This document shows positions 1-12,996 of a DNA stretch of 41,285 bases, piece after piece. Origin of the DNA: Streptosporangium minutum (lineage in GTDB: Bacteria > Actinomycetota > Actinomycetes > Streptosporangiales > Streptosporangiaceae); the NCBI RefSeq assembly GCF_002149035.1, contig NZ_NGFP01000012.1, forward strand, positions 28,831 through 70,115, in the 5' to 3' direction. A program made the translations under genes and the position numbers. Within the stretch, counting starts at the first letter, position 1, and every line of letters begins with the position of its first letter. The notes beneath the pieces are model-generated. The model did no database searches. It was given only the letters and a program-made list of their open reading frames with translations, and was not told the origin of the DNA.

Positions 1-3000
1 CCGTCCGGGATCGGCGCGCCGGTGAACGCGATGTCGCCGGGCAGCACCGCCTCGGCGCGCAGGTCCACGGCCTCGGCCGGCCGGCCGTCCACGACGGCGG
101 CCAGCTCGGCCAGGTCGGCCGTGGCGAAGATCGCGGTCATCGGGACCGCGACCCCCAGCTCGGCGGCGATCCTGGAGACGATCTGCGGCGCCAGCAGCGA
201 GTGGCCGCCCAGGTCGAAGAAGTTGTCCCCGCGCCCCGGATCCGCCTTGAGCACCTCGGCCCAGATCGCCGCGAGCGCCTGCTCGGTGCCCTCCCTCGGC
301 GGCTCGTACGGCACGGCGTCGCCGGCCTCGTCCGGCTCCGGCAGGGCCCGGAAGTCGACCTTCCCGTGGGAGGTGAGCGGCAGGGCGGCGAGCATGACCA
401 CGGCGCCGGGGATCATGTAGCCGGGGAGCCGGTCGGCGAGGAAGGCGCGCAGCGCAGCGACGGTGAGCGGCTCGCCCACCAGGTAGGCGACCAGCCGCCG
501 GGCACCGGCGGTGACCACGGCCTCGCGGACGCCGGGATGGGCCAGGCAGGCCGCCTCGACCTCGCCCGGCTCGATCCGGTTGCCGTGGATCTTCACCTGA
601 CGGTCGGTCCGGCCCAGGAACTCCAGGTTCCGGTCGGGGCGGAACCTGGCCAGGTCGCCCGTGGCGTACATCCTGGCTCCCGGGCGGGGCGAGAACGGGT
701 CGGGCAGGAAGCGTTCGGCGGTCAGGCCCGGACGGCCGAGGTAGCCGTGGGCCAGGCACTCGCCGGCGACGTGCACCTCGCCGGGCACCCCGATCGGAGC
801 CGGGTTGCCGTGCCGGTCGAGCACGTAGACGCGGGTGTGCGGCAGCGCGGTCCCGATCGGCAGGTGCGTGGCCGCGCCGAGTTCCGCCCCGTCGACGGTG
901 CGGTAGGCGGTGGCGCAGACGGTCGCCTCGGTGGGGCCGTAGTGGTTGTAGAACGCGACCCGGCCGCCGGTCAGCCCGGCCCAGACCCTGAGGCGCTCCA
1001 GCGGGACGCTCTCGCCGCCGACCATCATCGCGGTGAGCGGGACGTCCCCGGCGCCGGCCTCCGCGTCCAGGTGCTCGACCCACTGCTGCCACAGCGCGGA
1101 GGCGGTGTCGACCATGGTGATCGCGTGCTCGGCGCACAGGCCGACGAGCGCGGGGCCGGTGAGCGAGGCGGGGTCGGGGTGCAGCACCAGCGCGGCGCCG
1201 CTGATCAGCGCGGGGAAGACGTCGCCCGCCGAGGCGTCGAAGCTGAGCGGCGGGACCATCAGGACGCGCTCCCCCGGCCCGAAACCGTGCAGGTCCCGGA
1301 AGGACCTGGCCAGGTGGGAGAGGGTGCGGTGGCCGACCACCACCCCCTTGGGGCGCCCGGTGGATCCGGAGGTGTAGATCACGTAGGCGGCCTGGTCGGG
1401 ATGCCGGGCGGCCGCCTTCGGGGCCGCCGTCCTGTCCGTCGTCCAGAAGGCGAGGTCGGCGCGTGTCACGATCGGCCCGGTGAACCCGGCGAACCCGGCC
1501 TCCTCGGCGATCGCCACGGCCGCCCCGGAGTCCGCCAGCAGGTAGGCCAGCCGCTCGGCGGGCTGCGCCGGATCCAGCGGCACGTAGGCGGCGCCCGCCT
1601 TCAGGATCCCCAGCAGCGCCACGACGGCCTCGGGGCCGGCGGTCAGTCCCAGCGCGACCCGCGCGCCCCGGTCCGCGGGCTCCCCGGACGGCGCCGCCTG
1701 GGCCAGCAGGAGGCGCAGGCGTCCGGCGACGGCGGTGGAGGCCCGGTCGAGCTCGCCGTAGGTGAGCACCGTGCCGGAGGAGGCGCCGCGGCCGCCGGCC
1801 GTGCCGGGGACGACGACGGCGGGGGCGTCCGGCGTCCGGGCGGCCTGCCGGGCGATCAGGTGGTCGAGCAGGAGCGCCCCGGGATCCCAGGCGAGATCCT
1901 CGGGAGGGTCGCCGAGGACCGCGGCGAGCTCGGCCGCGGGCAGGATCTCCAGCTCCGACAGGCGGCGGCCCGGCTCCGAGACGACCGAGTGGAGCAGCGT
2001 CTCGTAGTGGACGCCCATCCGCTCCACCGTGGAGCGGTCGAACAGGTCGGTGTTGTAGGAGAACATGAGCTGGACGTGGGTGGAATAGACGATCACGTCC
2101 AGGGCGAGGTCGAACTTGGCTCCGGCCAGACCCGACAGCACCGGCTCGGTGCGGAGGCCGTCGAGGGAGAGCGCCCCGCTGTCGGGGTTGCCCAGCATGA
2201 GCATCGTCTGGAACAGCGGTGTCCTCGCCGGGTCCCGGTCGAGCCGCAGCTCGCCCACCACCCGCTCGAACGGCACCGCGGCGTGGCCGTACATGGTGAA
2301 GGCGCGCCGCCGCACCCGCTTGAGCGTCTCGCGGAAGGTCGGGTCGCCCGCCAGGTCGGCGCGCAGGGCCAGGGTGTTGATGAAGATGCCGAAGACCTGC
2401 TCGAACTCCTCGTGGTCGCGGCCCGCGACGGGAGTCCCGACGCAGAAATCCTTCTGCCCGCTGTAGCGGGAGAGCAGCACCTGGTAGGCGGCCAGCAGGG
2501 TCATGAACGGCGTGCAGCGCTCGGCCCTGGCCAGTCCGGTGACCCGCTGCCACAGCTCCAGCGGGATCCGGTGGACGACCAGGTCCCCGTTGCTGGTCTG
2601 TACGGCGGGGCGCGGCCGGTCGGTGGGCAGTTCCAGCGCCGGCACGTCGTCGAGCTCCCGGAGCAGGCCGGCGACGTCGGCGGACTGCTCGCGCTGCAGG
2701 CGGACGTGGTCGCGGTACTGCCGCTCCGGGGGTGCGAGCGGCGACGGCAGCCCGGTGGTGAAGGCCGCGTACAACGTGGCCAGCTCGGCGAACATCACCT
2801 GCTCGATCGACCACGCGTCGCCGGCGATGTGGTGCACGACCAGCAGGAGGATGTGCTCGCCGGGGCCGGTGCGCAGCAGGCTCGCCCGGAGCAGCGGCCC
2901 CTCGGCCAGGTCGAACGGCCGGTTGCTCCGCTCGGCGAGCAGTTCCGCCGGCGACTGCCCGGCGAGCGGTCCGCCGGTCAGGTCGAGCCGTTCGATCTCC

Positions 3001-3227
3001 ACCGGGGCGGGGTCCAGGACCAGCGCGACCGGGGCGCCGCCGACCTGGGGGAAGACGGTCCGCAGTGCCTCGTGCCTGGCCACGATCTCGCTCAGTGCCC
3101 GGGCCAGCGCGTCGGAGTCGAGCGGCCCGATGAGCCGCTCGCAGACGACCATGTTGTAGGTCCCGTCCCCGGGGGTGAGCCGGTCCAGGAACCACAGACG
3201 CTCCTGGGCGTAGGAGAGCGCGCTCAC
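1..3227 (-). CDS. Nonribosomal peptide synthetase, C-A-PCP then probable reductase domain (3' end outside window)
   Basis: The frame starts at GTG 3227, inside the stop of the carrier-protein gene (GTGA overlap), and stays open to base 1, giving about 1075 residues. Seen in order: a condensation domain from residue 1 (LSYAQERLWFLDR at the N terminus, HHIAGDAWS at about 132-140, with Ala where DG is usual); an adenylation domain with YTSGSTGRPKG near 620, FDASAGD, NHYGPTEATVC and SHGKVDFRALP; and a carrier domain with DNFFDLGGHSLL, phosphopantetheine Ser about 1010. By-eye alignment to the GrsA pocket gives roughly D-A-G-A-M-V-H-V-C-K, which I cannot match to a known substrate. After the carrier domain, DLRAEAVLPGDI resembles the linker that opens terminal thioester-reductase domains, so release as aldehyde or alcohol is inferred. 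It is the third cistron of a minus-strand operon and adds one monomer by thiotemplate chemistry. Confidence 0.93.
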   Translation of the reverse strand, partial: MSALSYAQERLWFLDRLTPGDGTYNMVVCERLIGPLDSDALARALSEIVARHEALRTVFPQVGGAPVALVLDPAPVEIERLDLTGGPLAGQSPAELLAERSNRPFDLAEGPLLRASLLRTGPGEHILLLVVHHIAGDAWSIEQVMFAELATLYAAFTTGLPSPLAPPERQYRDHVRLQREQSADVAGLLRELDDVPALELPTDRPRPAVQTSNGDLVVHRIPLELWQRVTGLARAERCTPFMTLLAAYQVLLSRYSGQKDFCVGTPVAGRDHEEFEQVFGIFINTLALRADLAGDPTFRETLKRVRRRAFTMYGHAAVPFERVVGELRLDRDPARTPLFQTMLMLGNPDSGALSLDGLRTEPVLSGLAGAKFDLALDVIVYSTHVQLMFSYNTDLFDRSTVERMGVHYETLLHSVVSEPGRRLSELEILPAAELAAVLGDPPEDLAWDPGALLLDHLIARQAARTPDAPAVVVPGTAGGRGASSGTVLTYGELDRASTAVAGRLRLLLAQAAPSGEPADRGARVALGLTAGPEAVVALLGILKAGAAYVPLDPAQPAERLAYLLADSGAAVAIAEEAGFAGFTGPIVTRADLAFWTTDRTAAPKAAARHPDQAAYVIYTSGSTGRPKGVVVGHRTLSHLARSFRDLHGFGPGERVLMVPPLSFDASAGDVFPALISGAALVLHPDPASLTGPALVGLCAEHAITMVDTASALWQQWVEHLDAEAGAGDVPLTAMMVGGESVPLERLRVWAGLTGGRVAFYNHYGPTEATVCATAYRTVDGAELGAATHLPIGTALPHTRVYVLDRHGNPAPIGVPGEVHVAGECLAHGYLGRPGLTAERFLPDPFSPRPGARMYATGDLARFRPDRNLEFLGRTDRQVKIHGNRIEPGEVEAACLAHPGVREAVVTAGARRLVAYLVGEPLTVAALRAFLADRLPGYMIPGAVVMLAALPLTSHGKVDFRALPEPDEAGDAVPYEPPREGTEQALAAIWAEVLKADPGRGDNFFDLGGHSLLAPQIVSRIAAELGVAVPMTAIFATADLAELAAVVDGRPAEAVDLRAEAVLPGDIAFTGAPIPD

Positions 3228-3514
3228 GCGAGCTCTCCTCGCAGCCGCGTGACCTCCTCGGCCAGGCCGGCGATGGTGGGATTGTCGAAGAAGACGTCGA
3301 GGGAGACCTCCACGCCGAGCCTGCGCCGGGTCCTGGCGATGATCTGGGTGATGGTCAGCGAGTGCCCGCCGAGGTCGTAGAGGTCCTCCTCCAGGCCGAT
3401 GTCGTCGATACGGAGGATCTCCTGCCAGATCTCGCGCACCTGTGTGATCACGGGGTCCTCCTGCTCCGGGCGTTCGAGCGCGGCGTCCGGGGCCGGAGAG
3501 AACAGGTCGGTCAC
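3224..3514 (-). CDS. Stand-alone peptidyl/acyl carrier protein
   Basis: This 96-residue free carrier domain begins at GTG 3514, overlapping the stop of the condensation-like gene (GTGA), and its own stop overlaps the NRPS start, so all three cistrons look translationally coupled. The Ppant attachment motif DLYDLGGHSLTITQI is intact, and helices typical of PCPs follow (RTRRRLGVEVSLDVFFDNPTI split over the domain). The roughly 25-residue N-terminal lead (LFSPAPDAALERPEQEDPV) is acidic and proline-rich, like a docking or linker segment. It probably presents a thioester-bound building block to the neighbouring condensation proteins. Which A domain loads it cannot be read from the sequence; the downstream NRPS A domain is the only one in the window. 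Confidence 0.9.
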   Translation of the reverse strand: MTDLFSPAPDAALERPEQEDPVITQVREIWQEILRIDDIGLEEDLYDLGGHSLTITQIIARTRRRLGVEVSLDVFFDNPTIAGLAEEVTRLRGELA

Positions 3515-4635
3515 TGAAGCTCCTCGTCGGGTTCGGGGTGAGGCGGTTCCGGAAGGTCGGCGATTCTCACCTGCGGCTCGGCGGCGATGACGCGCAGCAG
3601 GGCCCGCAGGTATCCCGCGACGCGGGCCACGTCGTCGTGGTCGATCGTGGTGGGGTTGAAGCGCAGGCCCAGGGTCAGGCTCAGGTCGCCGTCCACGGCC
3701 TGGACGTGCAGTGCGCGGCGGGAGGCGCCGTTGAAGACCGTCCACTCCACGCCGGCCCCGATGCCGGGGAAGCCCGGCGCGGACGCCCTTCTGCGGTAGC
3801 TGAGGAGCACCGGGCGGGAGGTCGTCCTCGGCGGCGCGTGCCGGAACCGGTACAGCTCGCGGAGCTCGGCCTGGACCGTGCGCAGGTAGGCGGGGAGGTC
3901 CTCGTCGAGCTCCGGATGCGGGACGAACGGCACCTCCGCCACGAAGTTCCCGATGTGGTGCCGTGTCTCGCCGGTGCGGGTGCCCAGGTCGAGGGCGAGG
4001 GGGGACCCGGTGGTGCCGTGGCGGCGCAGCAGCACGCCCAGCACGGCCACGAGCAGTTCGAACCTGGTCGCCCCCAGCGCCGTGGCCGCGGCGGCGACCC
4101 CGTCGAACTCCGCTCCGCCGAGCACCATCTCGACGATCTCGCCGGGGCCGGTGCCGCCGGGGTCCGCGCGCAGGCCGGGCAGGAGGAGCTCGGCGGGTGC
4201 GCGGTCGCGCTCCTTCCAGAAGGCCGCGGCGCCGTCGACCTGGGGGCGCTCGCCGTACGGCGGCGCCAGTGCGGGCAGTGCGGCGCGCGAGAAGTAGGCG
4301 TCGGCCAGATCGCGGAGCAGGACGTCCTTGGAGCCGCCGTCGAACACCCGGCCGTGCGCCGTGAAGATCAGGCGGTGCCGGTCCGGTCCCAGCGTGACCA
4401 GCGTGAACCGGGCGAGCGGGCCACGGTCCAGGTCGAACGGGCGGGCGATCTCGGCGGCGGCGACCTCCGGGTAGCGCCGGGACGACGAATCGACCCTGCT
4501 GACCCGGACCCGGCCGAGCACCGGGTGCCGTGCGGCGACGGCGGCGCACGCGCCGAGCAGCGCGGGGACGTCCAGGGGACCGTTCAGGTGGAGCACCAGC
4601 GGGATCCCCCGCAGGTCGAAAGAGGCGTGCGACAT
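3511..4635 (-). CDS. Stand-alone condensation-like protein with altered active site
   Basis: The 374-residue protein has the size and layout of a single condensation-domain fold: an N-terminal half with an RHPVLGRV segment, a core motif, and a C-terminal half with a GNFVAEVPFV stretch typical of the floor of the C domain. At the catalytic HHxxxDG position it reads HGRVFDG (residues 94-100), so the first His and the DG are kept but the second, normally catalytic, His is Gly. It may be a non-catalytic or noncanonical C domain, for example a scaffold or an acyltransferase using another base. It is the first gene of the operon with the free PCP and the NRPS. The start is ATG 4635, with a GAGGGA stretch upstream. 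The divergent neighbour is the GH3 hydrolase, and a dyad lies between them. Confidence 0.85.
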   Translation of the reverse strand: MSHASFDLRGIPLVLHLNGPLDVPALLGACAAVAARHPVLGRVRVSRVDSSSRRYPEVAAAEIARPFDLDRGPLARFTLVTLGPDRHRLIFTAHGRVFDGGSKDVLLRDLADAYFSRAALPALAPPYGERPQVDGAAAFWKERDRAPAELLLPGLRADPGGTGPGEIVEMVLGGAEFDGVAAAATALGATRFELLVAVLGVLLRRHGTTGSPLALDLGTRTGETRHHIGNFVAEVPFVPHPELDEDLPAYLRTVQAELRELYRFRHAPPRTTSRPVLLSYRRRASAPGFPGIGAGVEWTVFNGASRRALHVQAVDGDLSLTLGLRFNPTTIDHDDVARVAGYLRALLRVIAAEPQVRIADLPEPPHPEPDEELQ

Positions 4636-4712: not shown

Positions 4713-4725
4713 AGGAAAGTTTCCT
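4713..4725. promoter_or_regulatory. Perfect dyad AGGAAA-G-TTTCCT, candidate ROK-type operator
   Basis: The 13-bp inverted repeat sits in an unusually AT-rich strip between the divergent NRPS operon and the GH3 gene. The extended TTAATAGGAAAGTTTCCTG resembles the A/T-flanked GGAAA/TTTCC palindromes that ROK sugar regulators bind in actinobacteria (family knowledge, from memory). A related imperfect dyad lies beside the ROK gene at 9723-9737. Binding is inferred. Confidence 0.5.
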
Positions 4726-4806
4726 GTCTATTTACGCAACCCGAATGCTACACATGTGGTACGCCTGAAACAAGCGATGAGTGGTGAACCGAATCTGGAG
4801 GCTCTG

Positions 4807-6321
4807 ATGATCGTTCGTGGCGGCCTGAGTGGCGCGAGCCCCGAACTGGCCGGGCTTGCCGACACCGTGCTACAGCCCGGGTTCGTGGGTGTGGAGGTGC
4901 CCGACTGGCTGCGCAGACGCCTCGGCGAGGGGCTCGGAGGGGTTGCGCTCTACTCCCGAAACCTTGTAGACAGTGCGCAGGTCAGAGCGCTGACCGCCGC
5001 TCTCAGGGCGGAGAACCCCGACGTGGTGATCGCCACCGACGAGGAGGCTGGCGACGTCACCCGGCTGGAGGCGCTCACCGGCAGCTCCCGCCCGGGGAAC
5101 CTCGCGCTCGGCGCGGTGGACGACCCCGAGCTGACCGAGCTGGTCGCCCGCGGGGTCGGGCGCGACATGGCCGAGGCCGGCATCACCCTGAACTACGCCC
5201 CCGTGGTGGACGTCAACTCCGATCTGGACAACCCCGTCGTCGGCACCCGCGCGTTCGGCGCCGACCCCTGGCTGGTGGCCCGGCACGCCCGCGCGTGGGT
5301 CACCGGCCTCCAGTCGTCCGGGGTGGCCGCCTGCGCCAAGCACTTCCCCGGTCACGGGGCCACCGCCGTGGACTCCCACAACGACCTGCCGACCGTGTCC
5401 TACTCCGCCGAGGAGCTCGCCGCCACGGCGCTCCCGCCGTACCGGACCGCCATCGAGGCCGGGGTGCGGGCCGTGATGACCGGCCACCTGCTCGTCCCCG
5501 CCTACGACCCCGACTTCCCCGCCACGATGAGCAGCCGCATCCTGGTCGGGCTGCTCCGCGAGGAGCTCGGCTTCGACGGCCTGATCGTGACCGACGGCGT
5601 GGAGATGCCCTCGGTCGCCGAGCGGTACGGCGTGACCGGCGCGGCCGTCCGGGCCCTGGCCGCCGGGGCCGACGCCGTCTGCGTGGGCGGCGAGCGCAAG
5701 GGGGCCGGCGTGGTCGGATTCATGCGCAACGCCATCATGGCCGCCGTGATCGACGGCACGCTCCCCGAGGAGCGCCTGGCCGAGGCCGCCTCCCGGGTGC
5801 GCCGCCTGGCCGCCTGGTCGGCCGAGCAGCGCCAGGTCGCGTGGGCGACGGATCAGGCGCCTCTCACCCCGGCCGGGCTCACGGCGGCCCGGCGTGCCGT
5901 GCGGGTCCTCGGCGCGGGGCTGCCGCTGACCTCGGCGCCGCAGGTGATCGAGTTCGTGTCCGAGACGAACATCGCCATCGACCGGGCCACCCCGTGGGGC
6001 GTCGCCACGCCGCTGTCGGCGCTGCTCCCCGGCACCACGGCGGTACGGCTCGGCCCCGAGGACGAGGTCCCGCCGGTGCCCGGCGGGCGCCCGCTGGTGA
6101 TCGTGGTGCGGGACGCCCACCGGCACGCCTGGGTGTCGGCCCGGCTCGACGCGCTGCTGTCCGGGCGTCCCGACGCGGTCGTGGTGGAGATGGGGCTGCC
6201 GGGCCCCGGGACGCCCGGCGGCACGCACATCACCACCTACGGCGCGACGACCGCGTGCGGCCAGGCGGCGGCCGAACTCCTGGCCGGTCAGTCCTCCCTG
6301 ACCCGCACCGGCCCGCGCTGA
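4807..6321 (+). CDS. nagZ: Glycoside hydrolase family 3, beta-N-acetylhexosaminidase (NagZ-like)
   Basis: The 504-residue protein is predicted to remove terminal beta-linked N-acetylglucosamine, as NagZ does from muropeptides or chito-oligosaccharides. Seen: the GH3 N-terminal TIM-barrel sequence TDEEAGDVTRLE, NYAPVVDVN, the NagZ-type loop KHFPGHGATAVDSHNDLP (from residue 178), whose His and Asp supply the acid/base, and the nucleophile motif VTDGVEM (Asp about 263). A further C-terminal domain of roughly 150 residues follows, longer than in the minimal enterobacterial NagZ. The start ATG 4807 is chosen because GGAGG lies 5 nt upstream; in-frame upstream starts lack a good site. No signal peptide is seen, so it should be cytoplasmic. 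It is transcribed away from the NRPS operon, with a ROK-like dyad in the shared upstream region. Confidence 0.88.
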   Translation: MIVRGGLSGASPELAGLADTVLQPGFVGVEVPDWLRRRLGEGLGGVALYSRNLVDSAQVRALTAALRAENPDVVIATDEEAGDVTRLEALTGSSRPGNLALGAVDDPELTELVARGVGRDMAEAGITLNYAPVVDVNSDLDNPVVGTRAFGADPWLVARHARAWVTGLQSSGVAACAKHFPGHGATAVDSHNDLPTVSYSAEELAATALPPYRTAIEAGVRAVMTGHLLVPAYDPDFPATMSSRILVGLLREELGFDGLIVTDGVEMPSVAERYGVTGAAVRALAAGADAVCVGGERKGAGVVGFMRNAIMAAVIDGTLPEERLAEAASRVRRLAAWSAEQRQVAWATDQAPLTPAGLTAARRAVRVLGAGLPLTSAPQVIEFVSETNIAIDRATPWGVATPLSALLPGTTAVRLGPEDEVPPVPGGRPLVIVVRDAHRHAWVSARLDALLSGRPDAVVVEMGLPGPGTPGGTHITTYGATTACGQAAAELLAGQSSLTRTGPR

Positions 6322-6339
6322 GCCCTGCGGAACGCCTCA

Positions 6340-6365
6340 CGGCGGCCACCCGGGGATGGCCGCCG
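6340..6365. terminator. Hairpin between convergent genes
   Basis: GGCGGCCA and TGGCCGCC pair perfectly around an 8-nt loop, extended by one C-G pair. It begins 18 nt after the GH3 stop and lies 28 nt from the stop of the opposing deacetylase gene. There is no T run, as is common in actinomycetes. It could end transcripts from both sides. Confidence 0.6.
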
Positions 6366-6392
6366 GACGGACCGGGCCGGCGCGGCCGGGCG

Positions 6393-7094
6393 TCAGTCGT
6401 CGACGGCCCACACCAGCTCGTGCTGGAGCGGGCCCGGCATGGCGAGGAACTCCCCGTAGTCGCAGGCGAGCGGTGCGATCTGTGAGGCGTACGCCAGCAC
6501 GGCACGCCGCTTGGCCGTCCACTCGTCGCCCTCCAGCCGGATCCGCAGCTCGGGGCGGATCCGGTGCCGCTCCGCGAGGGCCCGGACCGGCGGCTTGCCG
6601 GCCAGGGCCTGATCGGCCGAGGCGGTCCCCCACTCACGGACGGCGGCGGCGTACGGAAGGTCGGCGTAGACCCACGGCGGCCGGGCGCCGGCCTTGCGCA
6701 GCGCGTCCAGCGCCTGGTCGCGGACCGCCTCGTGGTCGGCGTTGCCGATCCCCATCGGGATCAGCACCCGCGTCTCCGGTGTGACGTGGCCGGCGAGGAA
6801 GCCCTCCAGCTCCCGGAGCCGCAGCCCCGCCACCGGGGCGTCGGGATGCGCCAGCGCCACCTGGTCCACGCCGAGGATCTCGCACGCCCGCGCGTCCTCC
6901 GCCCGCCGTTCCCGCGCGGTCTCCTCTGCCGAGGCGAACCCGCACAGCCGGTCCCATGCCGAGATCTCCTCGCCCGGCGTCCCGCCCAGCGCCGTGACGA
7001 CCACCGCCGGCCCCTCGTCGCGGGCGAGCAGCCCCGCCACCGACAGGACCGCGTCGTCGAAATGCGGCGAGACCACGATCGTCCGCCAGCTCAC
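6393..7094 (-). CDS. PIG-L family deacetylase
   Basis: The 233-residue protein is a zinc-dependent N-deacetylase of the PIG-L/MshB/LmbE fold, acting on N-acetylglucosamine-type groups in known members. Seen: the N-terminal metal motif SPHFDDAVLS (His 11, Asp 13-14, replacing the usual AHPDDE) and the second metal region IGNADHEAVRD (His 121; the first His of the common HxDH is Asn). The start is GTG 7094, overlapping the stop of the methyltransferase gene (GTGA), so the two are co-translated. The open frame continues far upstream but there it only overlaps the methyltransferase. Role inferred from context: it exposes an amine that the coupled NodS-like enzyme could methylate. The substrate is not identifiable. 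Confidence 0.85.
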   Translation of the reverse strand: MSWRTIVVSPHFDDAVLSVAGLLARDEGPAVVVTALGGTPGEEISAWDRLCGFASAEETARERRAEDARACEILGVDQVALAHPDAPVAGLRLRELEGFLAGHVTPETRVLIPMGIGNADHEAVRDQALDALRKAGARPPWVYADLPYAAAVREWGTASADQALAGKPPVRALAERHRIRPELRIRLEGDEWTAKRRAVLAYASQIAPLACDYGEFLAMPGPLQHELVWAVDD

Positions 7095-8350
7095 CCCGCC
7101 TCCCCTGACCTGGTCAGCACGAGCCCGCGGCTGCCTCGCTTGCGCAGGTAGGCGAGGCCGTCGCAGATGGACTCCAGCGTCGGCGGGGCGAGTTCGAGCC
7201 GTTCGGCCACCCGCCAGGTGGACTGCCGCCGCAGCCACGGCCAGACCCGGTCGTTGAGCTGACCGGTCTCCAGGGCGATGAGGATCCGGTCGGTCGGCAG
7301 GGCGTCGAGCAGCGCCAGGTCCTGGTCGTAGTAGAGCATCTCGATCAGCAGGTACGCCGCGGCCGGACGGTTCCGGTGGGCGGCCAGGTCCTCCAGGCTG
7401 TCCGGCGTCACCTCCACCCCGGGCCCGGACCGCTCCGCCGTGACGACTCCGGCTCCCGCCGGTCTGGCCGCACCCGGATCGGCGCCGCCTCGGGCTCCCG
7501 TCAGCCCTGCCGTACCGGGGCCGGAGCCCGGACCGGCCCCCAGCCGCTCGGCCAGCCGGGCCCGGAACCCGGCGTTGGGCTCGGTGGCCTGGAGGGTGTA
7601 CCCGTTCCCGGCCAGCCGCCGGGTCAGCTCGCCCTCGCAGGCGCCCACCTCCACTATCGGCCCGTCGTCCGGCGCGCACCACCGGGCGACCCATGCCGCC
7701 GTCGCGTCGAGCCGGGCGGCCTCGTAGGCCGACCGGCCGAACTCCCATGGGTCGTCGGCCACCGCGGCGTCGTCCCCGAGGCTGGAGATCAGCGCGTACA
7801 GCCGGTTGGCCTGGGTCGCATCGGCGGCGAAGAAGCGTTCGACCACCGGGACCCGGTCGGTGGTGACGAGCCGGTCGGCCACCCGGCTGCGGAGCAGCTC
7901 CCCGGCGTGCCGGTTGATGAAATCGATCTTGATGTCGGCCTCGGTCCCGATGAGCGCGATCGCCTCACCGGGGACCGTCTGCAGGAAGGGGTTGTCCCCC
8001 ACCGAGTACGTCACGGTCAGGCCGGGGACCGCGCGGGAGACGGTCCAGCCGAACCGGGCCCGGCGGATCCGGTGGTCGGCCGGCGAATGGGTCCAGACCT
8101 CGGCGGGCGGCCCGCCCAGCCAGCCGGCCACCTCCTCGGGGGCCGGCAGCGGGGCCGTGTTGCCGCCGGGCTCCACGAGGGGGGCCAGCAGCTCCAGCCG
8201 CTCCCCCGGCGGCAGCCCCGCCGGCAGGGTCACCCACGACGCCGACTGACCGACGACCACCCTGATGTCCCGGTCGGCGTGACGCCTCAGGACGGACACG
8301 AACTCGAGAGCGACGTCCTCGGCATGCAGAACGGCGATGACGACCGTCAT
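7091..8350 (-). CDS. NodS-like SAM-dependent methyltransferase with extra N-terminal domain
   Basis: The 419-residue protein carries a class I methyltransferase domain in its second half: PIVEVGACEGELTRRLA is motif I, followed by LQATEPN at the end of beta 2. This domain is closest in style to NodS, which N-methylates deacetylated glucosamine in rhizobial Nod factors. The first half (about 200 residues, MTVVIAVLHAEDVALEFVS onward) is a separate alpha/beta domain I do not recognise. A Gly/Pro/Ala-rich insert follows motif I. ATG 8350 is preferred; GTG 8371 in frame has no Shine-Dalgarno sequence. It is the first gene of a two-gene unit with the PIG-L deacetylase. The NodS link is based on fold and pairing, not a computed alignment. 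Confidence 0.75.
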   Translation of the reverse strand: MTVVIAVLHAEDVALEFVSVLRRHADRDIRVVVGQSASWVTLPAGLPPGERLELLAPLVEPGGNTAPLPAPEEVAGWLGGPPAEVWTHSPADHRIRRARFGWTVSRAVPGLTVTYSVGDNPFLQTVPGEAIALIGTEADIKIDFINRHAGELLRSRVADRLVTTDRVPVVERFFAADATQANRLYALISSLGDDAAVADDPWEFGRSAYEAARLDATAAWVARWCAPDDGPIVEVGACEGELTRRLAGNGYTLQATEPNAGFRARLAERLGAGPGSGPGTAGLTGARGGADPGAARPAGAGVVTAERSGPGVEVTPDSLEDLAAHRNRPAAAYLLIEMLYYDQDLALLDALPTDRILIALETGQLNDRVWPWLRRQSTWRVAERLELAPPTLESICDGLAYLRKRGSRGLVLTRSGEAG

Positions 8351-8472
8351 AGAACCCCGATCTCTGATCACGGAATCATGTCTTTTCTATGACATTTCCG
8401 CGCCAGCATAGACGATCTTCGCGGCACCGCAACGGGTACGGAGCTGGAAGAATCGTCTGTCCCACCGGGCTC

Positions 8473-9657
8473 TCAGGGCGCGAAGATCTCCTCGCGCGCC
8501 TGCTCCAGGGCGGCGAGAACCGCACCGCGCAGCACCGGGTTCCCCTCGACCTCGCTGGCTACCACCTGCGGGCGGACCGGGCAGATCCGGGCCACCGCCT
8601 CCTCGATCCTGGAGGTCAGCGCGCCCCCGCCCGCCTGGCTCACCTCTCCTGCCAGCACCACGAGCCCGGGGTCGAGCACGACGGAGACCGATGCCACGCC
8701 CAGCGCCAACCGCTCGGCGATCTCGTCCAGCAGGGGCTCCCCGCGCTCCCCGGCCTCGACGGCCGCCGCGACGCACTCGGCGGCGCTGCCTCCCCCGAAG
8801 CCGTGGGTGGCGGCGAGCTCGGCCACCGCCTCCGCGCTGACCAGCGACTGCAGGCCGCCCGCGAGCGAGGGCAGCCGCCCGGGCACCGCCCGCACGTCCG
8901 CGGCCAGCGGCACGCCGGGCACGGGGAGGTAACCGATCTCGCCCGCGCTCCCGGACCGGCCGCGGTGCAGCCGGCCACCGAGCACGACGCCGAGGCCGAT
9001 GCCCCGGCCCACCCAGAGCAGCACGAAGTCGTCGACGTCCCGCGCCGCGCCCAGGGTGCGCTCGGCGACGGCGACGAGGTTCACATCGTTTTCAATCTTG
9101 ATGTCCCGACGCAGGTCACGGGCGAGCGCCTCATGGATGCCCTCGTGCCAGCCCGGCAGGTCGAAGGAGAAACGGACGTCCCCGGTCCGGGGATCGACCA
9201 CACCCGGCGTGCCGATCACGACCGACCGCAGCTTGGAGAGCGCGACCTTGGCCGACCGGCATGCCTTGACGACCGCGCTGTGCACGAGGGCGACCGGGTC
9301 GTCGTGCCCGTTCGGCGCGACCGTCACCTCGGCGACGATCTCCCCGTGGATATCCGCGATGGCGGTGGTGACGAATTCCGGGCCGACATCCAGGCCCGCC
9401 ACATAGGCAGAGGAGGGGATAATTCCATAAAGCGCCGCATTAGGCCCTCTCCCGCCCGCCTGCTCCCCCGCCACCTCGACCAGACCGCGCTCCTCCAGAC
9501 GGGCGAGCGTCTGTGACGCCGTCACCTTGGAAAGGCCGGTGAGCTCCCCGATCTGGCCCCGCGTCAGCGGTCCCGAGTCAAGCAACAGCTCCAGGGCGGC
9601 CCGGTCGTTGATCTCCCTCAATAGCCTGGGCACGCCAGGACGTCGCTCCATACGCAT
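8473..9657 (-). CDS. ROK family transcriptional regulator
   Basis: The 394-residue protein has an N-terminal winged helix (about 10-80: LTRGQIGELTGLSKVTASQTLARLEERGLVEV) and a ROK sugar-kinase-like domain beginning GLDVGPEFVTTAIADIHG. The ROK zinc motif CxCGxxGCxE is absent; the region after SAGEIGYL has no Cys, as in several regulators that have lost kinase function. It probably binds a sugar or sugar phosphate and represses genes nearby. It is divergent from a condensation-like gene, and dyads in the shared region, one like that upstream of the GH3 gene, suggest it controls itself, that gene, and perhaps the hydrolase and NRPS operon. ATG 9651 is an alternative start. Confidence 0.9.
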   Translation of the reverse strand: MRMERRPGVPRLLREINDRAALELLLDSGPLTRGQIGELTGLSKVTASQTLARLEERGLVEVAGEQAGGRGPNAALYGIIPSSAYVAGLDVGPEFVTTAIADIHGEIVAEVTVAPNGHDDPVALVHSAVVKACRSAKVALSKLRSVVIGTPGVVDPRTGDVRFSFDLPGWHEGIHEALARDLRRDIKIENDVNLVAVAERTLGAARDVDDFVLLWVGRGIGLGVVLGGRLHRGRSGSAGEIGYLPVPGVPLAADVRAVPGRLPSLAGGLQSLVSAEAVAELAATHGFGGGSAAECVAAAVEAGERGEPLLDEIAERLALGVASVSVVLDPGLVVLAGEVSQAGGGALTSRIEEAVARICPVRPQVVASEVEGNPVLRGAVLAALEQAREEIFAP

Positions 9658-10032
9658 GCTCTCTTGTTCGCCGTTTCCCCGTCGCTTTTACATTCAGATA
9701 AGAATAGCGGTTCTATTCATTAATAAGGCTTCCTGATAGTTTAGCCCCATGGAGGCCTCGCGGGGGGCCGCAGGGGCGCCCCTCGCCATGCCGCCCGCCT
9801 CCCGGTCCGCCCGCGCCCGCGTCGCCCGATCCGCCCGATCCGTCCCGCGCCCGCACCGTGTCCACCCCGCGCCATGTCCGCGTCGCCGGGAAACCGCTCT
9901 CCCCGGCCCCCTTTCTCCCCGCCGCCGGAAAATCGAGGCTTGCGACGCTCGCCCGTCGCGTGGAACACTCCCGAAAACGGTAAAGGTTCTTTTCAGTAAG
10001 AGCCTTCCGTGGGTGGCGAGGCAGGTCTCGAC
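9658..10032. promoter_or_regulatory. Intergenic region between ROK gene and condensation-like gene, with three dyads
   Basis: The first 80 bp are AT-rich, unlike the surroundings. They hold a perfect GAATAG/CTATTC inverted repeat (9702-9718, 5-nt spacer) and ATAAGG-CTT-CCTGAT (9723-9737, one mismatch), which shares TTAATA and TTCCTG with the box at 4711-4726. The rest, 9740-9980, is GC-rich with short CGATCCGCC-like repeats and no convincing gene. A hairpin at 9983-10006 precedes the next start. Confidence 0.5.
9983..10006 (+). promoter_or_regulatory. Leader hairpin AAGGTTCTT / AAGAGCCTT
   Basis: The 9-bp stem has one G-T pair and a TTCAGT loop. It ends 26 nt before ATG 10033 and abuts GTG 10009, which is one reason to prefer the ATG. 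It could affect translation initiation of the condensation-like protein. Confidence 0.4.
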
Positions 10033-11706
10033 ATGGACACCATCATCAGGATCGCAGCCGACTACGCGGGACGGCCGACCCGGAACGGGCCCGTCACGAT
10101 GGGTCAGGCCAACATGGCGCGTTGCGTGCTCCGCGACCCGCCGCTCCACATGAACTTCCGCGTCACCAAACACCTTCCGGCGGGAACGACCTTCACCGCC
10201 GTCACCGAGGCGGTCGGACGGCTGCTCTCCCGGCACGAGAGCCTCCGGGCCACCATCCGCTCCGGCGTCCAGCATGTGCCCGGGGCCGGGGTGTTCCCCA
10301 TCGAGGTGTACGGCGCCGCGACGGACGGCGCCGGGCCGGAGGCCGCCGAGCACGCCCTGGACGGGCTCGCCGAGGAGGTCGGCCTGCGGATGCAGGGCGC
10401 CCGGTTCGACGTGGAGGCCGAGCTCCCCATCCGGGTTGCCGTGATCACCGACAGGGACGTGCCGCGCCGGGCGGTCTTCGTCCTCCCCCACACCTCGGTG
10501 GACGCGATCGGCCTGGCCACCGTCATGCGTGAGTGGGAACGCCTGATCCGGGGTGACGCCGTACCCGCTCCGTGCCCCATGCAGCCGCTCGAACTGGCCG
10601 TCGCCGAGGGCACCCCGCTCGCCCGGCGGCGCACCGAGGCGGCGCTGCGGCACTGGGAGACCCAGCTCAGGCGCGTGCCGCAGTCCATGTTCGCGATCGA
10701 CGAGGTGGCCGACGCCGACGCGATCCGCCCACGGCTCAGGGTCCGCTCCGCCGTGGCCGGCGAGGCGCTGGGCGCCGTCGCGAGCCGTACCGGGGCAAGC
10801 CGCTCGGTGGTGACGCTCGCCGCGCTGGGCATGCTGATCGGCCTGCGGAACACCCAGCGGACCTGCGTGATCGCCTCGCTGTCGAGCAACCGGGTCCGTC
10901 CCGAGCTGCGCGACTACGTGGGGCCGCTGGCCCAGGACGCGCTGATGGCCGCCGACCTCGACGTTCCCACCTTCGATGAGGCGGTCCGGCGCTTCCGCGG
11001 CGCCTCCCTGGCCGGATACCAGCACAGCCGCTTCGACTCCACCGCGCTCTGGGAGGTCATCGAGGGCGTCAACGCCGAGCGGGGGGTGAACTTCGCACGC
11101 GACTGCGTCTTCAACGACATGAGCGGCGTCACCGTCGCCGACCGGGAGCCCCCGCCCGCCGCCGACGTCGAGTGCGGCTGGCTGCCCGAGGCCTCGCTCC
11201 CCGCGCATCTCGCACTCTGGGCCAACCGGCTGGAGGAAGAGGTGGACCTGACGTTCTGGATCGATCCACGGGTGATGTCCCGCCAGGAGGCGGAGGGTTT
11301 CGGGACCGGGCTCGTCAGGCTGCTGATCGAGGCCGGGGACCGGGTGATCCCCACGGCGGAGATCCCGGCCGTCTCCGGGGTCGCGCCCGCCGGCCACGGA
11401 CCCGGCTGGGTCCACGTCGACTCCTGCTGGGTGAGCCTCGACGCGGTCGGCCGGCTGGTCGGCGAGGCCGTCGGCGGGCGGCCGCACCGCGTGATCCACG
11501 GTGCCGACGGACGCCTGATCTGCCACGTCACCTCGGGAACCCCCGAGGAGATCCACGCCGCCTGTCTCGCCCTGCTGCCGGGCCGCACCTCCGCCATGAC
11601 GCCCCACCACTACGTCGTGCACCGGCCCGCGCCCGGCGACACCTGGCTGGACAGCCCCGTGGTGACCGAGGGTGACGGACGCCGACTCAATTCTTTCCTG
11701 ACCTAG
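10033..11706 (+). CDS. Stand-alone condensation-domain-like protein
   Basis: The 557-residue protein has a condensation/CoA-acyltransferase-superfamily fold. Seen: MGQANMARCVL near the start (C1-like), RHESLRATIR (about 68-77, C2-like), and PHTSVDA (152-158) at the HHxxxDG position, where the catalytic second His and Asp remain and the first His is Pro. The final 100 residues (after about 450) go beyond a single C domain and are unrecognised. There is no A or carrier domain. It could condense a carrier-bound acyl or aminoacyl group with a free amine. It is divergent from the ROK regulator and faces the Rrf2 gene 38 bp downstream. GTG 10009 is an alternative start; GAGGCAGG upstream of ATG 10033 favours the latter. 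Confidence 0.75.
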   Translation: MDTIIRIAADYAGRPTRNGPVTMGQANMARCVLRDPPLHMNFRVTKHLPAGTTFTAVTEAVGRLLSRHESLRATIRSGVQHVPGAGVFPIEVYGAATDGAGPEAAEHALDGLAEEVGLRMQGARFDVEAELPIRVAVITDRDVPRRAVFVLPHTSVDAIGLATVMREWERLIRGDAVPAPCPMQPLELAVAEGTPLARRRTEAALRHWETQLRRVPQSMFAIDEVADADAIRPRLRVRSAVAGEALGAVASRTGASRSVVTLAALGMLIGLRNTQRTCVIASLSSNRVRPELRDYVGPLAQDALMAADLDVPTFDEAVRRFRGASLAGYQHSRFDSTALWEVIEGVNAERGVNFARDCVFNDMSGVTVADREPPPAADVECGWLPEASLPAHLALWANRLEEEVDLTFWIDPRVMSRQEAEGFGTGLVRLLIEAGDRVIPTAEIPAVSGVAPAGHGPGWVHVDSCWVSLDAVGRLVGEAVGGRPHRVIHGADGRLICHVTSGTPEEIHAACLALLPGRTSAMTPHHYVVHRPAPGDTWLDSPVVTEGDGRRLNSFLT

Positions 11707-11744: not shown

Positions 11745-12194
11745 ATGCGTCTATCCGCTCGTGTCGACTATGCCCTGCGTGCCGCCGCCGAACTCGCCGC
11801 CGCCGGCGAGGGACCAACCACTGTGGGTGAGCTGGCCAAAGAGCAGGACATGCCGCCCAAGTATCTGGAGAACATCCTCCTGCAGATGCGCCGGGCGGGC
11901 CTGGTCCGCGGTCAGCGTGGCCCCGAGGGCGGTTACGTGCTGGCCCGGCCGGCCGCGGAGATCACCTTGGCCGACGTGATCCGCGCCGTGGACGGCCCGC
12001 TGGCCAACGTGCGGGGCGAGCGGCCCGAGCATGTCGACTACCGGGGCCCCGCCGAGTCGTTGCAGCAGGTCTGGATCGCGTTGCGGGCCAGCGAGCGGGC
12101 GATCCTGGAGGAGGTCACGCTTGACAGCGTGGCCACCGGCGCGCTTCCCGAGCGGGTCCGCCAGCTCGCCGCCGACCCCGCCGCCTGGGACTGA
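11745..12194 (+). CDS. Rrf2 family transcriptional regulator, cysteine-free
   Basis: The 149-residue protein shows a full Rrf2 winged helix: MRLSARVDYALRAAAELA, then VGELAKEQDMPPKYLENILLQMRRAGLVRGQRGPEGGY (in pieces). Members such as NsrR and IscR bind Fe-S clusters through three Cys; this protein has no Cys at all, so it must sense something else or act by DNA binding only. The start looks leaderless. It is followed 10 nt later by endonuclease VIII on the same strand, so the two may be co-transcribed. Confidence 0.88.
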   Translation: MRLSARVDYALRAAAELAAAGEGPTTVGELAKEQDMPPKYLENILLQMRRAGLVRGQRGPEGGYVLARPAAEITLADVIRAVDGPLANVRGERPEHVDYRGPAESLQQVWIALRASERAILEEVTLDSVATGALPERVRQLAADPAAWD

Positions 12195-12204
12195 GCGGGC
12201 TCCC

Positions 12205-12996
12205 GTGCCCGAGGGCGACGTCGTCTACCGCACCGCGAGGCGGCTCGGCCAGGCACTCGACGGCCGGATCCTGACGCGTTCCGACTTCCGCGTGCCACGC
12301 CACGCCACGGCCGATCTCACCGGCCGTGCCGTGCTGGAGACCGTCTCGCGCGGCAAACACCTGCTCACCCGGGTCGACGGCGGCCTGACCGTCCACACCC
12401 ATCTGCGCATGGAGGGGAGCTGGCAGATCTCACCCGCCGGCCGTCGGCCGCCCCCCGGCGACGTGGTCCGCCTGGTGCTGGCCAACGCCGAATGGCAGGC
12501 GGTGGGAGTACGGCTCGGCGTGGTCGACCTGGTGACGACCGCTGAGGAGGATCGGCTCGTCGGGCATCTCGGACCCGACCTGCTGGGACCGGACTGGGAT
12601 CCGGCGGAGGCCGTACGGCGGCTGGCGGGGAACCCCGGGCTGACCATCGGAGAGGCGCTGCTCGACCAGCGCAACCTGGCGGGGATCGGCACCGTCTATC
12701 GGGCCGAGACGCTTTTCCTCGCGGGGGTCTCGCCGTGGCGGCCGGTGGGGACGATCGAGGATGTGAGGAGGATCGTTGCGCTCGCGCAGCGGTTACTGCA
12801 CACCAACAGAGAGCGGGAACGGCGCGTGATGACGGGCGATGCCCGCGCGGGCCGGAGCACGTGGGTCTACGGCAGGGCAGGAAGACCTTGCCTGCGCTGC
12901 GGACGTCGGATCAGTCGCGGGGAGATGGGGGCACAGCCGCAGGAACGGCTGATCTTCTGGTGCCGTCACTGCCAGCCGGAAGAACCGACCGGCTAA
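12205..12996 (+). CDS. nei: Endonuclease VIII / formamidopyrimidine-type DNA glycosylase
   Basis: The 263-residue base-excision repair enzyme removes oxidised pyrimidines and nicks the abasic site. After Met removal the N terminus is [13 protein letters not shown], giving the catalytic Pro and Glu. The Lys loop [10 protein letters not shown], the helix-two-turn-helix sequence [17 protein letters not shown] and a C-terminal CLRC...CRHC zinc finger (near 231-257) are all present, so it looks active. GTG 12205 is the only start that puts PEG first. Its stop overlaps the clgR stop tail to tail by 3 nt, leaving no room for a separate terminator. Confidence 0.93.

Follow-up and report, generated by a model that had tools for sequence, protein, structure and literature searches.

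A coupled deacylase and methyltransferase pair

The window analysed here, a 41,285-nucleotide stretch of Streptosporangium minutum DNA, covers the right-hand part (28831-70115) of contig C24 in a draft genome of 9.58 Mb. It carries two overlapping reverse-strand genes, hereafter the pair, which encode a NodS-like methyltransferase (7091-8371) and a PIG-L family deacylase (6393-7094, GTG start at 7094), set among genes of a nonribosomal peptide synthetase (NRPS) cluster and of a sugar-uptake locus. The nearest named relative found is Streptosporangium canum (G180), whose methyltransferase is 96% identical. Gene identities were assigned by Pfam and NCBIfam profile searches, while most genes of other species outside the reference set were identified by eye. 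A first-pass annotation had grouped the pair with a glycoside hydrolase family 3 (GH3) enzyme, a ROK regulator and condensation proteins as a Nod-factor-like set. Each of these genes was found where it had been placed or close by, with Pfam support, and the 4-nucleotide (nt) overlap within the pair was confirmed: the methyltransferase stop TGA (7093-7091) and the PIG-L start GTG (7094-7092) share the letters GTGA at 7091-7094 on the reverse strand.

With the starts chosen, the two reading frames overlap in all nine complete pairs from Streptosporangiaceae, by 4 nt in six and by 1 nt in three; for S. saharense, one of the three, an upstream GTG start would likewise yield 4 nt. The pair is thus predicted to be translationally coupled, with the coupling conserved and not due to chance. 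A DUF1796 gene separates the methyltransferase from PIG-L in Streptomyces NRRL F-5135 and G315, and SID13031 has the methyltransferase with no PIG-L match. The three-gene set, observed in two Streptomyces-type loci (L039:10001-12959 and L100:9640-12492), is possibly the older form of the pair.

The PIG-L protein scores 45.8 bits against PF02585, whose cut-off is 28.2, and the family is matched at E ≤0.01 in 10/10 homologues. Residues H11, D14 and H121 are invariant in all ten rows of the PIG-L alignment (A2), and we take them, from what is known of MshB, to be the metal ligands of the HxDD motif (here HFDD) and the last His of HxDH. In the window protein, Asn takes the place of the first His of that motif, and we predict an N-deacylase with an altered HxDH motif. 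By profile, the nearest solved structures are Dbv21 (E 2.1e-13) and Orf2* (E 3.1e-10). A mycothiol-conjugate amidase has a precedent in lincomycin biosynthesis, and PIG-L could likewise act as an amidase of the LmbE/Mca type on a mycothiol conjugate arising in the biosynthesis, with the methyltransferase acting on the released thiol or amine. While the weak NCBIfam matches of PIG-L to BshB2 (E 1.2e-5) and Mca (E 0.0009) point this way, both scores fall far under their cut-offs and the likeness to Dbv21 and Orf2* is stronger, and we regard this explanation as very improbable. Separately, distant PIG-L relatives matched in seven plasmid loci, and a glycosyltransferase gene adjoins the relative in the two that were read.

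Structural models were built for the methyltransferase from 11 homologues (mean predicted local distance difference test score, pLDDT, 78) and for its N-terminal 204 residues alone (mean pLDDT 86), and these were compared with the PDB. The gene models as two domains, a feature new to this analysis: a PIG-L/LmbE-fold N-terminal half (residues 1-204, 7760-8371) and a C-terminal half closest to NodS (residues ~199-426, 7094-7777). For the whole protein, Pfam NodS (PF05401) is the only match at E ≤0.01, although its 16.4 bits lie under the cut-off of 24, and an assignment to the NodS family from sequence alone was rejected on this ground. The NodS-like label nevertheless draws support from homologues and from fold, as the same Pfam entry matches 11/11 aligned homologues at E ≤1 (best 5.4e-6), and VIA-align places NodS 3ofk first of 50 listed entries for the C-terminal domain (Z 18.4, 2.4 Å, 169 residues; next 17.1). 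By Foldseek E-value, NodS ranks 13th among many methyltransferases.

The view of this protein as a plain NodS-like methyltransferase stood for its C-terminal half but not for its N-terminal half, whose modelled PIG-L fold is invisible to sequence searches. Against PDB sequences, the N-terminal domain gave no profile match at E ≤10, and hhalign aligned it with the window PIG-L alignment at a probability of 0.1, which is not significant, though the same motif was aligned. In contrast, the first 22 VIA rows for the modelled domain all have the PIG-L/LmbE fold (Z 9.6-10.8; next row 5.3), comprising BshB, MshB, Orf2*, Dbv21, diacetylchitobiose deacetylases, LnmX and, counted with this fold on our assumption, TT1542 and the hydratase GalB. 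Foldseek put the same families on top, with only GalB at E ≤0.001 and the deacetylases at 0.005-0.12. In the N-terminal domain, H16, E18, D19 and H100 stand at the motif places. E18 and D19 are kept in 12/12 homologues (11 aligned rows plus G315, by eye), and H16 and H100 are His in all nine Streptosporangiaceae and both lost in all three homologues outside the family. Because of this conservation, the hidden domain may still bind metal in Streptosporangiaceae. The nine may represent one clade, in which case the H16/H100 pattern may reflect a single event.

An NRPS cluster settled in a sugar-uptake locus

To the left of the pair, the window opens with a reverse-strand NRPS module of condensation, adenylation, thiolation and thioester reductase domains (C-A-T-reductase; 1-3227, start at 3227; Pfam C, A and PP-binding, NAD_binding_4, TIGR01746), whose reductase end runs beyond the window's left edge to C24:27750. 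It is followed on the same strand by a peptidyl carrier protein gene (3224-3520, start approximate; PP-binding 71.3 bits) and by C3, a free-standing condensation-type protein (3511-4635; Pfam Condensation 75.2 bits). GH3_2, a NagZ-type β-N-acetylhexosaminidase-like gene, occupies 4756-6321 on the forward strand (Pfam GH3 242 bits). Beyond the pair lie ROK2 (8473-9657, reverse; Pfam ROK 132.6 bits), which we assign as a regulator of the sugar-uptake locus, and C4, a second free-standing condensation-type protein (10009-11706, forward; Pfam Condensation 39.9 bits). The right-hand boundary is formed by an Rrf2 regulator (11745-12194) and a Nei2 glycosylase (11745-12996 for both, forward), a place beside ROK2 that is conserved; to the right of Nei2 the genes are of housekeeping type (CinA, CDP-alcohol phosphatidyltransferase, radical SAM/TRAM, RodZ and FtsK).

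Left of the window, contig C24 carries the remainder of the C-A-T-thioester reductase NRPS, a major facilitator superfamily exporter, an O-methyltransferase, a flavin adenine dinucleotide (FAD) monooxygenase (best NCBIfam match VioC, under cut-off), DUF6875 and MerR. The uptake genes there are GH3_1, two permeases, a sugar-binding protein (best NCBIfam match NgcE, under cut-off), ROK1 and a VanX-like dipeptidase. Further out are a dimethylformamidase-like protein, condensation protein C2, small carrier and MbtH genes, a two-module NRPS and an AMP ligase, and at the contig end condensation protein C1, a carrier and an E1-alpha subunit, such that the contig begins within the cluster. The second permease, MbtH and two small carrier genes were identified by eye or by place, and the remaining genes of C24:1-41826 by Pfam. 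Among the genes of this interval, no NodC/chitin-oligomer synthase or other glycosyltransferase was recognised, the contig starting inside the cluster.

A ROK2-like gene is found at E ≤1e-90 in 173/200 family genomes, our own included, with some of the matches being paralogues. We read 19 ROK2 loci as stretches of 20 kb (40 kb in G189; in G148, 2.1 kb past VanX), and eight of them (G101, G142, G009, G062, G170, G005, G158 and G148) hold no other cluster genes in the stretch read; as the 19 were picked by hand, some for looking like empty sites, 8/19 is not a frequency. The gene order in these eight is Rrf2, ROK2, GH3_1, permeases, binding protein and ROK1, followed in six by a VanX-like gene. 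In G101, about 240 bases separate the matched ends of ROK2 and GH3_1; the corresponding stretch of the window's contig contains GH3_2, the pair and the NRPS module. Since the uptake locus stands without cluster genes in eight loci, the sugar genes are separate from the pair: ROK2 and GH3 belong to an older sugar-uptake locus, and the NRPS cluster sits in and beside it. GH3 and ROK were accordingly rejected as partners specific to the pair, and the claim that they form part of its set is not supported; among the loci read, the pair lies between them only in the five of Streptosporangium.

GH3_2 looks like an old duplicate inside the uptake locus, because in G095 and G121 it stands beside ROK2 with no C-A-T-reductase module between GH3_2 and GH3_1, and because G142 retains remnants of it. 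The latter are short stretches between ROK2 and GH3_1 (L073 7394-7581), a decayed copy at the GH3_2 site. Every GH3 copy compared, that of the window included, retains the motif KHFPGHGxxxxDSH.

The condensation proteins had been suggested as possible NodA-like acylators of an amine, which their occurrence does not bear out. C3 and C4 both occur in G189 and G196, which lack the pair, and no copy of either turned up in the loci of Nonomuraea endophytica and Nonomuraea typhae that carry the pair in the cluster. The catalytic (second) His of HHxxxDG is lost from C3 in 6/6 orthologues, with G or A in its place (HGRVFDG in the window), and C4 keeps its catalytic His in 7/7 (PHTSVDA). A NodA-like step linked to the pair is thus hard to assign to C3 or C4. 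We also observed that C3 adjoins its own carrier protein, and it is perhaps a non-catalytic condensation fold.

A third condensation gene, C2, is present at ≥55% identity in 46 family genomes, and in 35 of these, among the matches listed and by hand-copied positions, a ROK1 or ROK2 match on the same contig is at most 25 kb away. In the other 11, the two are far apart on one contig (three genomes) or on different contigs (eight); in G044, one of those eight, DMFA2 lies at the contig edge beside ROK1. The linkage of C2 to the uptake locus appears to be old, and a regulatory or nutritional link between the cluster and the locus is therefore possible.

A pathway of the kind put forward in the first-pass annotation can be judged against these findings: GH3 and the importer would provide an amino sugar in N-acetylated form, to be deacetylated by PIG-L, N-methylated by the NodS-like enzyme and acylated by a condensation protein into an amino-sugar-peptide. 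Deacetylation and N-methylation both occur in Nod factors, the PDB relatives of PIG-L are glycopeptide pseudoaglycone deacetylases, the sugar-binding protein is nearest NgcE, albeit under cut-off, and C2 travels with the uptake locus. However, no glycosyltransferase or NodA was recognised in the window's cluster (a NodA search of the S. minutum genome gave no match, as did searches of the control genomes), the occurrence of C3 and C4 does not follow that of the pair, importer, ROK and GH3 also stand together where NRPS genes are absent, and among the loci read only those of Streptosporangium place the pair beside ROK and GH3. We consider this pathway improbable. The evidence of a Nod-factor-like neighbourhood is largely explained by the cluster sitting in the uptake locus, a case in which gene neighbourhood can mislead: the sugar genes by the pair are those of an older locus that an NRPS cluster has settled.

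Distribution and possible role of the pair

The search proposed in the first-pass annotation, for the pair beside NRPS genes in other actinomycetes, found it inside the cluster between ROK2 and GH3_2 in our own genome, S. canum, G123, S. carneum and S. saharense, and next to DUF6875, again within the cluster, in N. endophytica and N. typhae; in N. lactucae, a methyltransferase fragment lies beside VanX at a contig end. Within the family sample, the methyltransferase is present at ≥62% identity in 4/200 genomes, our own included, and six further weak matches span 50-80 residues. Six of the 200 genomes carry the module, defined as an FAD monooxygenase at ≥67% identity within 15 kb of ROK2, and they include all four methyltransferase genomes (Fisher p 2.3e-7, uncorrected for relatedness). 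The 67% threshold was set after inspection of the list, and the best copies in 40 other genomes, at 39-63%, were taken as paralogues. Likewise, all seven named Streptosporangiaceae genomes with the pair that were searched have the FAD monooxygenase at ≥67%, two of them on another contig, N. lactucae being excluded from this count. Across the phylum, the methyltransferase was found in 2/396 genomes (our own and G315), and a search of plasmids with it gave no match.

Based on these data, we favour, tentatively and at a little under an even chance, a reading in which the pair, coupled in translation, tailors what the surrounding NRPS cluster makes. PIG-L would remove an acyl group from an amide nitrogen, and its partner, with its hidden PIG-L-fold domain and NodS-like methyltransferase, would bind the same product and N-methylate the freed amine; ROK and GH3 may regulate or feed the cluster but would not go with the pair. 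This reading builds on the gene identities, the coupling, the modelled folds of both halves of the partner and the co-occurrence with the module of C-A-T-reductase, FAD monooxygenase, O-methyltransferase and DUF6875. We infer both the order of the steps and the sharing of one substrate, be it the product of the NRPS or a sugar on that product. Deacylation plus N-methylation, as had been suggested at the outset, is thus retained as the natural reading of two coupled families, with PIG-L nearest Dbv21 and Orf2*, but not the joint Nod-factor-like set with GH3, ROK and condensation proteins. In a fuller version, possible but doubtful, a three-domain deacylase-methyltransferase machine, made up of one canonical and one hidden PIG-L-fold domain and a NodS-like domain, turns N-acyl into N-methyl on a peptide product, and the uptake locus, for an amino sugar or muropeptides, may control the cluster.

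Several observations weigh against a role for the pair in NRPS tailoring. The first His of HxDH is Asn in nine of the ten rows of A2, the window's included, and Gln in the other (by eye). The family sample behind the co-occurrence is small and related, and the module genomes G179 and G100 lack the pair, which is hence not essential. In N. ceibae and Nonomuraea sp. SBT364, the pair lies near guaA, outside the cluster, with the NRPS module on another contig. The gene next to the N. ceibae pair encodes a collagenase. At greater distances come genes for a polysaccharide deacetylase at 4 kb, an AMP-binding protein at 11 kb, a carrier at 13 kb, a DegT-type sugar aminotransferase at 18 kb and a GT2/glycerophosphotransferase at 28 kb, of which the first and the last two favour a glycan reading. 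The case that had been set beforehand against the amino-sugar-peptide pathway, a pair with no condensation or NRPS genes nearby, was seen in part, in Streptomyces NRRL F-5135 and G315, whose methyltransferase-DUF1796-PIG-L sets have no NRPS match in the 20 kb read; N. ceibae and SBT364 fit it less well, since they carry the NRPS module on another contig and AMP-binding and carrier genes lie 11-14 kb from the N. ceibae pair. In the NRRL F-5135 genome, neither the cluster binding protein nor the FAD monooxygenase was found, and SID13031 lacks the cluster binding protein and has an FAD-monooxygenase paralogue at 44%. In N. ceibae, a sulfotransferase gene was also noted within ~30 kb of the pair (L030:5444-19116 and L031:3617-16261).

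These occurrences bear directly on the main rival, that the pair has a function of its own, for example in editing an envelope glycan or glycolipid, and that its location in the NRPS cluster is hitch-hiking. The pair, or the methyltransferase only in the case of SID13031, stands outside the cluster in N. ceibae, SBT364, NRRL F-5135, SID13031 and G315, glycan-type genes lie 4-28 kb from the N. ceibae pair, and distant PIG-L relatives stand beside a glycosyltransferase in the two plasmid loci read. The N. ceibae surroundings speak for a glycan role as much as for a peptide role. On the other hand, the methyltransferase in the family sample is confined to module genomes, and the collagenase and two regulator-like genes part the N. 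ceibae pair from the glycan genes. We judge an independent function unlikely.

The genes left of the window also hint at a building block of the NRPS product. DUF6875 adjoins the VioC-like FAD monooxygenase and the O-methyltransferase (C24:23076-25069; window -5754 to -3761), and DUF6875 proteins are reported to be tryptophan-oxidising heme enzymes (PMC13307353). Hence a tryptophan that has been oxidised and methoxylated may be a substrate of the C-A-T-reductase NRPS, a lead and not a result. Our literature searches gave no product for the NRPS family that combines C-A-T-reductase with FAD monooxygenase, O-methyltransferase and DUF6875. Nor did they yield anything on this cluster under PIG-L/NodS/S-adenosylmethionine (SAM)-methyltransferase pairs, Streptosporangium NRPS with kynurenine monooxygenase, ROK/NagZ uptake loci, free-standing condensation proteins with deacetylases, 7-hydroxy- or 7-methoxytryptophan clusters, or P422. 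Two further gene arrangements were noted by eye: a carbamoyltransferase-like gene (NodU/HypF type) between DUF6875 and GH3_1 in S. saharense (L051:5246-6865; G202:C6 145246-146865), and P450-like and MarR-type genes adjoining the VanX-like gene in N. endophytica (L107:2505-4098; contig C8 217505-219098) and N. typhae.

The analysis thus names an NRPS family, that of the C-A-T-reductase with FAD monooxygenase, O-methyltransferase and DUF6875, and uncovers by modelling a probable PIG-L-fold domain hidden in a NodS-like methyltransferase, which makes a defined enzyme pair available for testing.

Comparison with known systems

The uptake genes resemble loci for the import of chitobiose/N-acetylglucosamine or of muropeptides, in which an NgcE-type binding protein, a GH3 NagZ and ROK occur together, and to which ROK1, the binding protein, two permeases, GH3_1 and the VanX-like gene correspond here. 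In contrast with those loci, NRPS genes are inserted in this one, whose imported substrate is putative. The window PIG-L belongs to the same subfamily as Dbv21 (A40926, 3dfi) and teicoplanin Orf2*, which are natural-product tailoring deacetylases, and shares the stretches SPHxDDAVLS and DLPYA with Dbv21. However, Dbv21 has HPDH, whereas the window protein is without the first His of that motif, is coupled to a methyltransferase, and is accompanied by no recognised glycopeptide NRPS or glycosyltransferase.

For the C-terminal domain of the methyltransferase, the best VIA match is the rhizobial N-methyltransferase NodS (3ofk), although identity is 13%, the Pfam score is under cut-off, and the window protein has an additional, modelled N-terminal PIG-L-fold domain. 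Proteins annotated at NCBI as "bifunctional PIG-L deacetylase/class I SAM methyltransferase" place both folds in one chain, as appears to be the case here, a likeness drawn by name. In contrast to those fusions, the fused PIG-L half of the window protein has diverged beyond the reach of Pfam, and its gene is followed by a second PIG-L gene, of canonical type.

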